A program made the position numbers and the translations under genes. DNA of 64,000 nucleotides from Hydrogenophaga sp. (lineage in GTDB: Bacteria > Pseudomonadota > Gammaproteobacteria > Burkholderiales > Burkholderiaceae_C), in NCBI RefSeq assembly GCF_025699295.1, contig NZ_JAILWB010000007.1, forward strand, positions 1 to 64,000, read 5' to 3'. The notes below the pieces were generated by a model. The model was not told the origin of the DNA and searched no databases. It worked only from the letters and a program-made list of their open reading frames with translations. Shown piece after piece: positions 48,364-55,790 of this stretch. The stretch's first letter is position 1. Every line of letters begins with the position of its first letter.

Positions 48364-49857
48364 ATGACCCGGGACGACCGCCTGCCGCGCGACGCGCAAA
48401 GCATTCTCGAACTCGCCGCGCGCTCGATGTTCGAGCTGTTCGCCAACGCCAGCGAAGGCATGATGCTGGTGGACCGCGACGCGCGCGTGGTCTGGATCAA
48501 CGACCAGTACCGCCGCTTTCTGCCGGCGCTGGGCTTCGAGCGCGAGGAAGACTTCGTGGGTCACCCGGTCTCCCGCGTGGTGCAGAACACGCAGATGCAC
48601 CAGGTGCTGGCCACCGGCAAGCCGATCCTGATCGACCTGCTGACCAACCGCGCGGGCACCTTCGTGGTCAGCCGCATCCCGCTGCGCGACGGCGCGGGCG
48701 AGGTCATCGGCGTGCTGGGCATCGTGCTGTTCGACCACCCCGAGACCACGCTGCAGCCCCTCATCAGCAAATTCGCGCGGCTGGAGCAGGACCTGAGCGA
48801 GGCGCGGCGCGAACTGGCCAGCCAGCGCCGCACCAAGTACACCTTTGCCAGCTTCGTCGGCAGCAGTGCCGCGGCGCTGGAGGTCAAGCGCCAGGCGCGG
48901 CGCGCGGCGCAGTCGGCCAGCCCGGTGCTGCTGCTGGGCGAGACCGGCACCGGCAAGGAGCTGCTGGCGCACGCGATCCACGCGGCTTCGCCGCGCGCGG
49001 GGCGGCCGTTCGTGAGCGTGAACATGGCCGCCGTGCCCGACACGCTGCTGGAGGCCGAATTCTTCGGCGTGGCACCCGGTGCCTACACCGGCGCGGACAA
49101 GAAGGGTCGCGACGGCAAGTTCAAGCTGGCCGATGGCGGCACGCTGTTCCTCGACGAGCTGGGCGACATGCCGATGTCGGTGCAGGTGAAGCTGCTGCGC
49201 GCGCTGCAGGAGGGCGAGATCGAACCGCTGGGCTCGAACAGGCTGTTGCGCTTCGACGTGCGTGTGGTCGCCGCCACCTCGCGCGACCTGCAGCAGATGG
49301 TGGCCGAAGGCAGCTTCCGCGAAGATCTCTACTACCGGCTCAACGTGCTGCCCATCCGCGTGCCGCCGCTGCGCGAGCGCCGGGACGACATCGCGCTGCT
49401 GATCGAGGCCTTGTGCGAGGACATTGCCGCACGCGGCGGCGGTGCCCAGCTGGAGCTGACCACCGATGCGCAGGCGTTGCTGGCCGCGCAGAGCTGGCGC
49501 GGCAACATCCGCGAGCTGCGCAACGTGCTGGAGCAACTGGCGCTGCGCAGCGACTCGCACCACATCACCGCCGCGCAGGTGGGCGCGGTGCTGCGCGAGG
49601 CCGGATTGCCCGCGCTGGCGCCGGCACAAACAGCGGCGCCGCTGCGCGCGGCTGCAGGCGCCGAGTCCGAAGGCGCTCAGCTGCGCCCGCTGCCCGAGCA
49701 GATTGCCGAGCTGGAGCAGCGTGCCATCGCGCTGGCGCTGGCGCACACCGGTGGCAACCGCACTGCTGCAGCGAAGCTGCTGGGCATCTCGCGCGCCAGT
49801 CTGTACGACCGCCTGACGTCTTCCGGTGGATTGTCTGAAATTCATACGATTGCCTGA
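48364..49857 (+). CDS. Sigma54-dependent transcriptional activator with PAS domain
   Basis: 497 residues. PAS-type sensor domain (about 21-125), then an AAA+ domain with Walker A GETGTGKE (192-199), the sigma54-contact loop GAYTGA (239-244, in place of GAFTGA) and Walker B LFLDE (261-265), then a Fis-type HTH (about 455-485, [21 protein letters not shown] split over 472-492). It should bind upstream sites as a hexamer and open sigma54 promoters. Its last codons overlap a palindrome and a sigma54 promoter follows, so the adjacent transporter operon is the likely target. No receiver domain, so the signal is probably read by PAS. Confidence 0.92.
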
Positions 49858-49902
49858 ATTTCAGACGTTTCTTCATCTTCAAATCGTCTGAAATCTGGAC
49901 GA
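49833..49902 (+). promoter_or_regulatory. Upstream activating sequence: palindrome plus third half-site
   Basis: GTCTGAAATTCA (49833-49844) and TGAATTTCAGAC (49855-49866) are perfect 12-bp inverted arms around 10 bp. A third site at 49884-49902 contains GTCTGAAAT inside a TCGTC/GACGA inverted pair. The palindrome overlaps the regulator's last codons and stop. Its centre is about 100 bp before the sigma54 promoter, a normal distance for an enhancer site. Confidence 0.7.
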
Positions 49903-49952
49903 CCCAGATTGACCCGCTTGAAAACCTGTTGAATATCAACGGCGTCCGGTGT

Positions 49953-49968
49953 TGGCATGAAGCCTGCA
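49953..49968 (+). promoter_or_regulatory. Sigma54 (-24/-12) promoter
   Basis: TGGCATGAAGCCTGCA differs from the TGGCACG-N4-TTGCA consensus at two bases and keeps the invariant GG and GC at 12-bp spacing. Transcription would start near 49980, leaving a leader of about 40 bases before the ATG at 50021, which has AGGAGA nearby. Confidence 0.75.
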
Positions 49969-53813: not shown

Positions 53814-53826
53814 ACAGGAGCGCCGC

Positions 53827-54927
53827 ATGATTTCCCGCATCCTCTCCAACGACCTGCCGCGCAGCCGCTGGCTGGCCGCCGTGCTGATCGTGCTGTTCCT
53901 CGGCCTGGCCTTCGCGCCCTTCCTGTTCCCGGGCGTGAAGGCGCTCAACGTGGCCGCCAAGGTGCTGATCTTCGTGGCGCTGGTGGCCAGCTTCGACCTG
54001 CTGCTGGGCTACACCGGCATCGTCAGCTTCGCGCACACCATGTTCTTCGGCATCGGCGCGTACGGCGTGGCGATCGCGCTGAACGCGGTCGAGGAACCGA
54101 GCTGGGGTGCGATCGCGCTGGGCGTGGTCTGCGCGCTGGCGATCTCGTTCGTGCTCTCGCTGCTGATCGGCCTGTTCTCGCTGCGTGTGAAGGCGATCTT
54201 CTTCGCCATGATCACGCTCGCCGTGGCCTCGGCATTCCTCACCCTGGCCTCGCAGCTCTCGGACTTCACTGGTGGCGAGGACGGCCTGAGCTTCTCCGTG
54301 CCCGAGCTGTTGTCACCCGCCTTCAGCCTGCGCGAGGAGCCGCTGGCCACGCCGCTGGGCGAGGTGGATCTGGACGGCCGCTTCATCACCTACTACCTGC
54401 TCTTTGTCGCGGTCACGGCGATCTTCCTGACCATCCTGCGCATCGTGAACTCGCCCTTCGGCCGCGTGCTGCAGGCGATCCGCGAGAACGACTTCCGCGC
54501 CGAGGCCCTGGGCTACCGTACGGTGGTCTACCGCACGCTCTCCAACGTGCTCTCGGCCGCGTTCGCCACGCTCGCGGGCTGCCTGCTCGCGCTCTGGCTG
54601 CGCTACCAGGGACCCGACACCTCGCTGTCGTTCGAGATCATGCTCGACATCCTGCTGATCGTCGTCATCGGCGGCATGGGCACGCTGTACGGCGCGCTCA
54701 TCGGCAGCGTGATCTTCGTGCTCGCGCAGAGCTACCTGCAGGACCTGCTGCGCCTGGCGGGCGGTGCCGCCGAGGGCATTCCCCTGCTGCCCGCGCTGCT
54801 CACGCCCGACCGCTGGCTGCTCTGGCTGGGTCTGCTGTTCGTGCTCTCGGTCTATTACTTTCCCACCGGCATCGTGGGCAAGCTGCGGGAGCGCGCGGTG
54901 CTCGCCCGCCTGAGGGGCCGCCCATGA
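53827..54927 (+). CDS. livM: LIV-type ABC transporter permease (LivM type)
   Basis: 366 residues with about ten transmembrane helices and the LivM motif FDLLLGYTGIVSFAH near residue 58. AACAGGAGC precedes the ATG. It overlaps the hydrolase gene by 4 bp. Confidence 0.94.
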   Translation: MISRILSNDLPRSRWLAAVLIVLFLGLAFAPFLFPGVKALNVAAKVLIFVALVASFDLLLGYTGIVSFAHTMFFGIGAYGVAIALNAVEEPSWGAIALGVVCALAISFVLSLLIGLFSLRVKAIFFAMITLAVASAFLTLASQLSDFTGGEDGLSFSVPELLSPAFSLREEPLATPLGEVDLDGRFITYYLLFVAVTAIFLTILRIVNSPFGRVLQAIRENDFRAEALGYRTVVYRTLSNVLSAAFATLAGCLLALWLRYQGPDTSLSFEIMLDILLIVVIGGMGTLYGALIGSVIFVLAQSYLQDLLRLAGGAAEGIPLLPALLTPDRWLLWLGLLFVLSVYYFPTGIVGKLRERAVLARLRGRP

Positions 54928-55790
54928 ATCCGACCACGCCGCCCGCACCCCGCTCGCGCTACCTCGCTTGCGAAGGCCGCGAGATCCACTTCATGGACTG
55001 GGAGCCCGAAACCCCCACCGGGCCGGTGGTGGTGGCCTGGCACGGCCTGGCGCGCACCGGCCGCGACATGGACCCGCTGGCCGCACACCTGTGCGCCCTG
55101 GGCTGGCGCGTCATCTGTCCCGACACCATCGGCCGCGGCCTGAGCCAGTGGAGCCCGGCGCCCGAGGCCGAGTACTGCCTGGACTTCTACAGCCGCATCG
55201 CCACAGCACTGGTGGACCAGCTCGCGCTCAAGCGCTTCCACTGGGTGGGCACCTCCATGGGGGGCGCGATCGGCATGGCGTGCGCCGCCGGCCCGTTGCA
55301 CGGGCGCATCGAGCGCCTGGTGCTCAACGACATCGGCCCGAAGCTGGCCGACGCCGCCGTGCAACGCATCCGCAGCTACGCCGGCAGCCCGCCGGCCTTC
55401 GCGACCGTGGGCGAGCTGGAGCAGTACTTCCGCACCGTCTACAAGCCCTACGGCTATCTGAGCGACGCGCAGTGGCGCCTGTTCACCGAAAGCTCCACCC
55501 GCCGCCTGCCCGACGGCCGCGTGACGCCGCACTACGACCCGGCCATGGTGCAGCAGTTCATCCACCACCCGGCGGACTACGACTTGTGGCCCGCCTACGA
55601 CCGCATCGACATCCCGGTGCTCTGCCTGCGCGGCGCGGACTCGGACCTGCTGCTGGCCGACACCGCCGAGGCCATGCGCGACCGGGGTCCGCGCGCGCTG
55701 GTGGTGACCATTGCCGGATGCGGTCACGCGCCGGCGTTGAACGTGCCCGAGCAACTGGATCTTGTGCAGCGTTTTCTGGCGGGGCACTGA
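54924..55790 (+). CDS. Alpha/beta hydrolase
   Basis: 288 residues. Catalytic motifs: HGLARTG (oxyanion area, about 41-47), nucleophile Ser in GTSMGG (about 109-114) and His in GCGHAP near the C-terminus. No signal peptide, so cytoplasmic. As the last gene of the transporter operon (4-bp overlap with livM), it probably hydrolyses the imported compound or a derivative, for example an ester, lactone or amide. Confidence 0.88.
   Translation: MNPTTPPAPRSRYLACEGREIHFMDWEPETPTGPVVVAWHGLARTGRDMDPLAAHLCALGWRVICPDTIGRGLSQWSPAPEAEYCLDFYSRIATALVDQLALKRFHWVGTSMGGAIGMACAAGPLHGRIERLVLNDIGPKLADAAVQRIRSYAGSPPAFATVGELEQYFRTVYKPYGYLSDAQWRLFTESSTRRLPDGRVTPHYDPAMVQQFIHHPADYDLWPAYDRIDIPVLCLRGADSDLLLADTAEAMRDRGPRALVVTIAGCGHAPALNVPEQLDLVQRFLAGH

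Follow-up and report, generated by a model that had tools for sequence, protein, structure and literature searches.

What does a transporter of the branched-chain amino acid (LIV) type import when it stands behind a sigma54 activator gene? The question is raised by a locus in the window analysed here, a 64,000-nt stretch of DNA from Hydrogenophaga sp. (contig NZ_JAILWB010000007.1, positions 1-64,000, forward strand; source genome of 4.69 Mb in 42 contigs, rated 100% complete), in which the gene of a PAS-domain activator precedes an operon encoding a substrate-binding protein (SBP), two ATPases (LivG, LivF), two permeases (LivH, LivM) and an alpha/beta hydrolase [Table 1]. A first-pass annotation made from the letters alone had listed these components, all of which were found downstream of the activator by Pfam searches and reading frames, and had called the nutrient unknown; the linkage of polyhydroxybutyrate (PHB) enzymes to the operons of relatives now narrows it to 3-hydroxybutyrate (3HB) or its oligomers. 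With a probability that we put at roughly 75%, the locus is a sigma54-controlled, LIV-type importer branch for PHB breakdown products, namely 3HB or short oligomers, and its esterase probably acts in the cytoplasm. What the sequence shows directly is the order of the genes, the operators, the promoter, the conservation of these and the linkage to PHB genes.

The activator, its operators and the promoter of the transporter operon

Pfam searches of the activator returned a sigma54-interaction AAA+ domain (PF00158, 225.6 bits), AAA_lid_14, a Fis-type helix-turn-helix (HTH; HTH_8, residues 447-484) and, at the N-terminus, a PAS_4 domain (residues 28-121), and found no receiver domain. Alignment with relatives placed the sigma54-interaction loop, here GAYTGA, at residues 239-244. 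The protein thus combines the AAA+ domain with GAFTGA-type loop, the Fis-type HTH and the N-terminal sensory domain of a sigma54 enhancer-binding protein, and its genome encodes the partner sigma factor, rpoN being represented by one PF04552 match (213.7 bits). Eight proteins of the genome score over the PF00158 cut-off, five of them strongly. Its closest named relatives are found in Hydrogenophaga, the top full-length hit among the matches listed being that of Hydrogenophaga sp. IBVHS1 (92%); a partial match at a contig end of a Hydrogenophaga metagenome-assembled genome reaches 96%.

The pairing of activator and SBP was examined in a sample of 250 genomes of the family, drawn from a larger group, presence being scored at E <= 1e-60 for the SBP and E <= 1e-100 for the activator. 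The SBP was present in 134 genomes (90 of the 141 sampled genera), the activator in 127 and both in 121, yielding an odds ratio of 171 (Fisher p 1.6e-47, n = 250); the two genes lie at most 1 kb apart in 76 genomes and at most 5 kb apart in 104. Among 80 named loci retrieved with the activator, the best 80 of 304, the SBP gene follows the activator by no more than 700 bp in 74. Three activators located away from any SBP (L208-L210) had no operator-promoter pair in the fetched stretch. A dedicated sigma54/PAS activator for this LIV-type operon is strongly supported by these comparisons of sequence. That such a combination is unusual, as had been claimed, may be fair with respect to the usual annotation of LIV systems; the arrangement is family-wide, however, and not a local oddity.

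The unit conserved in the activator-SBP intergenic regions of relatives is a 13-bp palindrome, TCTGAAWTTCAGA, mostly present in two to three copies. The window holds three, their centres 19 and 34 bp apart, and these are its only operator matches of at least 13 bits. Searched with up to two mismatches, the palindrome occurs twice in the 64 kb, 19 bp apart, against a mean of 0.31 in dinucleotide shuffles. The first-pass annotation had seen a perfect 12-bp palindrome overlapping the stop codon of the activator, plus a third half-site. The repeat is real (49833-49844 and 49855-49866, 12 of 12 positions complementary, 10-nt gap), is perfect since the deviations of copies 1 and 2 fall on opposite outer sides, and does carry the TGA stop (49855-49857) in its right arm; its parsing as palindrome plus half-site, however, is replaced by three 13-bp operators, the third made up of one good and one degenerate half. 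A single 34-bp palindrome was rejected, since relatives conserve the 13-bp unit and vary in the distance from one unit to the next. Autoregulation of the activator through a palindrome at its stop codon was likewise unsupported, the sites lying downstream of the activator and beside the SBP promoter.

The near-consensus -24/-12 promoter was confirmed as an exact pattern match that is conserved among relatives. Taken alone, the pattern is not rare, 3.0 occurrences being expected in 64 kb when up to one mismatch is allowed and two being seen, one of them exact; its support is its good placement and conservation. To avoid circularity, a matrix was trained on 32 Hydrogenophaga-like regions and tested on 42 others, obtained by removing the Hydrogenophaga-like set (L045-L077) from the 74 named activator-SBP regions and carrying labels such as Ramlibacter, Rhodoferax, Caenimonas, Tepidimonas, Curvibacter, Hylemonella and unclassified Burkholderiales. 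At least two operators were found in 30 of these 42 regions, one in 10 and none in two, compared to at least one operator in 0.05% of their dinucleotide shuffles. The first interval between operators most often measured 19 bp (15 of 30), and the second was always 23-25 bp long (9 of 9); overall, 19 bp and next 24-25 bp were the most frequent spacings. In all 42 regions, the best-scoring -24/-12 site ahead of the SBP was TGGCAY[GA]-N4-NTGC, with a score above 10 bits in 36 and a mean of 14.9 bits vs -1.8 in shuffles. A scan of the named loci, which total 1.40 Mb with the training loci, gave 66 operator-promoter pairs; 65 of these lay between activator and SBP (64 of the 74 regions have one), and the 66th (L087) comes right after an activator that stands at a contig end.

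Elsewhere in the window, further -24/-12-like matches occur on the + strand at 35376 and 61398 (11.4 and 16.1 bits), without operators nearby. A scan of the whole genome for the operator with up to three mismatches gave 36 places vs 10 for a reversed control. The places with two mismatches outside the window (L165-L167) revealed no operator-promoter pair that would indicate a wider regulon, and the sole place with one mismatch (L125) is inside an open reading frame (ORF).

PHB enzymes in the operons of relatives

The nutrient is suggested by enzymes that recur at two fixed positions of the operon across many genera. An extracellular type-2 depolymerase of short-chain-length polyhydroxyalkanoates (scl-PHA) is inserted between SBP and LivG in many operons. 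The two copies scanned (L052 and L081) scored 380.6 and 380.0 bits with NF050059 (cut-off 280), that of L052 matched the PHB depolymerase of PDB entry 2d80 at E 3e-93, and the insert matched Pfam PF10503 below the cut-off. The gene between LivM and the hydrolase encodes, in many operons, either a 3HB-oligomer hydrolase (PF10605; E 7e-281 in L104) or else a carboxylesterase. Activator, SBP and hydrolase occur together in 58 of the 80 named loci, where the hydrolase closes the operon; at least one of these enzymes is inserted in 16 of the 58 (10 with a depolymerase, seven with an oligomer hydrolase, two with a carboxylesterase).

Counted over the 250 genomes, with every listed match to SBP, activator and depolymerase included, SBP and depolymerase co-occur in 36, lying no more than 1 kb apart in 31. 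Full-length or near full-length PF10605 matches were obtained in 72 genomes, seven of 79 having been excluded for fragments or weak matches; 48 genomes have the SBP and a full-length oligomer hydrolase, at most 10 kb apart in 37. One or both enzymes lie within 10 kb of the SBP in 53 of the 134 SBP genomes, a proximity that, by our estimate, a randomly placed gene in a 5-Mb genome would attain in ~0.5% of cases. Genome-wide co-occurrence of SBP and depolymerase is moderate (odds ratio 3.5, p 0.0006), and the strength of the PHB evidence is physical linkage rather than co-occurrence.

The same control elements are found before PHB genes that stand apart from the transporter. In two genomes that belong to a single genus and are thus not independent (L191 and L192), the activator, an operator and a -24/-12 element directly precede the oligomer hydrolase, with no transporter gene in the fetched 6-kb stretch; in L192, the terminal hydrolase is also present, after the oligomer hydrolase. 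A lone PHB depolymerase (L207) likewise has an operator and a -24/-12 element upstream. Seven distant activator homologues of 46-53% identity were picked by hand (six of 48 records, L185-L190, plus L039), and in five of these loci a 3HB dehydrogenase lies within ~3 kb, annotated as such in L039, L185 and L188 and called by 48-49% identity in L189 and L190. The dehydrogenase of L039 (Mariluticola) sits inside the operon, between activator and SBP, and in L185 and L189 a -24/-12 match faces the side of the 3HB dehydrogenase.

Four alphaproteobacterial plasmid operons (L040-L043) present the SBP-LivGFHM-hydrolase order without the activator, their SBPs being 62-65% identical to that of the window. 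All four are followed by genes for an AMP ligase, a MaoC protein and an enoyl-CoA hydratase, which fit a short acyl or hydroxyacyl substrate, and are adjoined by a TetR regulator. Some operons contain a second SBP gene (L116:18167-19300, and L174 with two adjacent SBP genes). Other LIV-type subunits, ~37-42% identical to LivG and LivF of the window, lie near 3HB-oligomer hydrolase or 3HB dehydrogenase genes in L194, L195, L196 and L185; this substrate may thus also be handled by LIV proteins of a second subfamily.

Extracellular type-2 depolymerases and PF10605 hydrolases are absent from the operon of the window itself, and neither was found in its genome; as to the type-2 enzyme, the L052 query matched 47 of the 250 genomes, which shows that this search works, and in a second search control genomes gave no match either. 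One protein of the type-1 PHB depolymerase family is encoded (L213; borderline at 154.5 bits vs a cut-off of 150), with no operator. A 3HB dehydrogenase is present (G000:C40:175902-176657; TIGR01963, 349.8 bits against a cut-off of 307.05; PDB 2q2q at E 8e-109). Its gene is adjacent to, and divergent from, that of a paralogue of the terminal hydrolase (~40% identity; the pair at L168:7897-9679, on the same contig, C40), tying this esterase family again to 3HB. A nearby gene (L168:12203-12871) resembles the PHB-synthesis regulator PhaR, by reading alone. Since neither the type-2 depolymerase nor the oligomer hydrolase was found in this genome, the operon of the window looks like a scavenger version, using products that others have freed. 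A 2026 review describes such 'continuers' of polyhydroxyalkanoate (PHA) decay in the portion of its text available to us (PMC13372988).

Table 1 Features of the activator-transporter locus, in window coordinates
Feature	Position	Strand	Basis and remarks
Activator gene: PAS, sigma54-interaction AAA+ (GAYTGA loop), Fis-type HTH	48364..49857	+	Pfam domains, alignment with relatives, reading frame
Operator 1, TCTGAAATTCATA	49834..49846	.	Within the 3' coding end of the activator; 29.2 bits
Operator 2, CCTGAATTTCAGA	49853..49865	.	Across the activator stop codon; 27.6 bits
Operator 3, TCTGAAATCTGGA	49887..49899	.	One good and one degenerate half (the half-site of the first-pass annotation); 18.7 bits
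-24/-12 (sigma54) element TGGCATG-AAGC-CTGCA, TGGCATGAAGCCTGCA	49953..49968	+	Pattern match; 28.8 bits
SBP, LIV-type; signal peptide-like N-terminus (by eye)	50021..51211	+	Pfam, frame, closest solved structure RPA4397 (3n0x); start inferred at 50021 rather than the mechanical 49973
LivG-type ATPase	51338..52099	+	Start inferred, probably at 51338; longest ORF from 51269
LivF-type ATPase	52096..52830	+	Pfam and NCBIfam searches, frame
LivH-type permease	52827..53813	+	Start inferred, probably at 52827; family searches used 52902-53813
LivM-type permease	53827..54927	+	Pfam and NCBIfam searches, frame
Alpha/beta hydrolase, no evident signal peptide (by eye); invariant Ser111, Asp241, His268	54924..55790	+	Pfam, alignment, structure model; proposed 3HB-oligomer esterase

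From the SBP gene to the end of the hydrolase gene, the reading frames are co-directional and several start and stop codons overlap, the hydrolase as final gene overlapping livM by 4 bp. Beyond the operon, an ORF without Pfam match (55834-56679) has a G+C content of 0.54-0.57 vs ~0.66 in its surroundings and was probably acquired; a Fic/DOC protein with DUF4172 is encoded on the opposite strand (56748-57944) and adjoins a DUF2200 gene (58035-58400).

Substrate of the importer and competing explanations

The composition of the transporter (Peripla_BP_6 SBP, two ABC ATPases and two BPD_transp_2 permeases, by Pfam, all in one operon) is that of the LIV/HAAT-type importers, such as livKHMGF and urtABCDE. 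It differs from these in that no subunit (SBP, LivG, LivF, LivH or LivM) reached the NCBIfam cut-offs for LIV or urea transporters, LivH having been searched 25 residues short, and in that the proposed ligand is a hydroxy acid or its ester. Among solved structures, the SBP is nearest to RPA4397 of Rhodopseudomonas palustris (PDB 3n0x and 3nnd; E 9e-173 by sequence, 70% identity over 372 columns in Foldseek with a model of pLDDT 80.2). Entry 3n0x was deposited as a branched-chain amino acid transporter protein, and we found no ligand for it. For 22 R. palustris proteins of this COG that had been mis-annotated, the part of one report seen by us (PMC3223731) states that branched amino acids or amides were ligands of very few, and that the majority bound other amino acids or hydrophobic acids; a text search of its main text did not return the name RPA4397. 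The further neighbours of the SBP, at 15-25% identity, are other LIV-type SBPs. The hydrolase model (pLDDT 88.8) is closest to 3bwx, deposited as an alpha/beta hydrolase, and 4ose, a putative hydrolase. As none of the close neighbours has an assigned ligand, the two models, usable in themselves, do not decide ligand or substrate.

Several observations weigh against import of PHB breakdown products. Neither PHB enzyme lies within 10 kb of the SBP in 81 of the 134 SBP genomes, that of the window included, and SBP and oligomer hydrolase show weak co-occurrence across genomes (odds ratio 2.1, p 0.011). Of 12 PHB genes located away from the operon, 11 had no operator in the upstream stretch scanned (L195-L203, L205 and L206, L205 being cut by a contig end; L204 was left out as a piece of the operon with livH, livM and then the hydrolase), nor was one found in the 3HB dehydrogenase region of the window's own genome. 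The 6-kb flanks of the distant activators L186 and L187 contain no 3HB dehydrogenase, and no such operator occurs near the distant homologues. Finally, where a ligand is named for a structural neighbour of the SBP after RPA4397, hydroxybenzoates are among those listed, besides urea and amino acids. The hydroxybenzoate binders fit an aromatic or other plant-derived acid as the ligand, with the PHB linkage reflecting a shared lifestyle, as does the mostly non-branched ligand range of the R. palustris proteins. We consider this quite unlikely, the neighbours concerned being only 19-25% identical, while none of six annotated plasmid neighbourhoods has a gene labelled for aromatic degradation and four of the six have the AMP ligase, MaoC and enoyl-CoA hydratase genes just downstream. 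An ordinary amino-acid LIV transporter under sigma54 nitrogen control, with PHB genes as chance passengers, appears very unlikely. All subunits do match the Pfam and NCBIfam families of branched-chain amino acid and urea transporters, and sigma54 classically serves nitrogen metabolism; such a transporter is nonetheless at odds with the scores below the NCBIfam cut-offs, with an activator that has a PAS domain and no receiver domain found, with the recurrence of PHB enzymes at two fixed operon positions in many genera, and with the presence of activator and operator before the oligomer hydrolase and of operator and promoter before the lone depolymerase.

The upstream neighbourhood offers another explanation, in which the activator chiefly serves a tricarboxylate transporter and the position of the LIV operon is incidental. 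Directly upstream of the activator, 41919-48335 encodes a histidine kinase (-), a response regulator (-), a porin (+) and tctC-tctB-tctA (+), an arrangement that we take to resemble a TctDE-controlled tricarboxylate uptake cluster. The activator starts only 28 bp past tctA, the last gene of this cluster, with which it may be co-transcribed, and, of the 70 named loci that leave room for tctA, 46 have it upstream of the activator, 25 of them no more than 400 bp away. Against this, the window scan found no operator or -24/-12 match before tctC or before the activator, the response regulator and histidine kinase beside the porin and tctCBA are the likelier controller, and TctA was not found upstream within the fetched stretch in 24 of the 70 loci; we regard this explanation as highly improbable. 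The linkage to tct is a loose one, since ~2.5-3.7 kb with other ORFs part tctA from the activator in some relatives (L048, L083, L088 and L101). Of the circuit that had been called self-contained, the dedicated activator, operators and promoter stand, and the independence of the activator gene is not supported, given its start so close behind tctA with no operator before it. A closer competitor is import of the 3HB monomer only, or of a similar short hydroxy acid, the terminal hydrolase acting on another substrate or being a housekeeping esterase. The activator homologues near 3HB dehydrogenase, which is a monomer enzyme, and the Mariluticola operon containing it agree with such a transporter, and the 3HB-oligomer hydrolase, wherever it occurs, could cut oligomers ahead of their import. 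It has real weight, and yet we hold it for less than probable: the hydrolase is the last gene of the operon, overlapping livM, closes the operon in the 58 named loci and, in L192, follows the oligomer hydrolase with no transporter in the stretch, and therefore tracks ester breakdown and not uptake alone. Oligomers are favoured as the import substrate because the esterase recurs in the operon.

Proposed pathway and relation to known systems

For uptake of PHB breakdown products, the following sequence of events may be proposed. A 3HB-type signal would be sensed by the PAS domain, freeing the PAS-AAA+ activator, which would bind the three 13-bp operators ~85-140 bp upstream of the predicted start site and remodel sigma54 polymerase at the -24/-12 element, thereby switching on SBP-LivGFHM-hydrolase. 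The LIV-type ATP-binding cassette (ABC) transporter would then import (R)-3HB and/or short 3HB oligomers, the putatively cytoplasmic terminal hydrolase would split the oligomer esters, and the 3HB dehydrogenase encoded elsewhere in the genome would oxidise the monomer. In relatives, a secreted PHB depolymerase and a 3HB-oligomer hydrolase are added to the same operon. Ligand, inducer, hydrolase activity and DNA binding are here what we infer. More tentatively, at odds that we judge to be a little short of even, the locus would be the polyester counterpart of a polysaccharide-utilisation locus, in which one sigma54 module controls depolymerase secretion, oligomer hydrolysis and ATP-driven import of 3HB oligomers, the SBP of the LIV-type transporter binds polyester oligomers, and scavenger versions, that of the window among them, keep the importer and drop the depolymerase.

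The closest known regulator by description, rather than by sequence, is HbcR (PA2005) of Pseudomonas, according to the portions of the sources at hand a PAS-containing sigma54 (RpoN) enhancer-binding protein that is activated by (R)-3HB and controls its use (PMC10482368, PMC8694187, PMC13390443). The activator of the window shares the PAS-AAA+-HTH architecture of the HbcR type and the genomic linkage to 3HB/PHB metabolism. HbcR, however, governs (R)-3HB catabolism, the dehydrogenase and its regulator being the targets named in those portions, whereas the predicted target here is an ABC importer, accompanied in relatives by enzymes of PHB degradation. As for uptake, a 2023 paper describes, in the part available, hbtABC of Ruegeria pomeroyi as the only confirmed bacterial 3HB uptake system (PMC10130141); the likeness to it is one of described function, and hbtABC comprises three genes (SPO2571-2573) vs five transporter genes in the window. 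In the titles and abstract openings covered, which largely leave aside subscription papers, we recognised no description of a PHB depolymerase operon that includes a LIV-type transporter or a sigma54 activator, and the word 'transporter' has no occurrence in the 2026 review of PHA degradation in soil (PMC13372988). Sigma54 activators, LIV transporters and PHB depolymerases are each known; for their union in one operon, no description was found.

Uptake of the products of PHB depolymerases is little described, and an importer with a readable operator provides a concrete candidate for it. For 3n0x and 3nnd, solved SBP structures to which we found no ligand assigned, the operon suggests a likely class of ligand; it also offers a ready-made sensor of PHB degradation and is a possible marker separating polymer degraders from cross-feeding scavengers.

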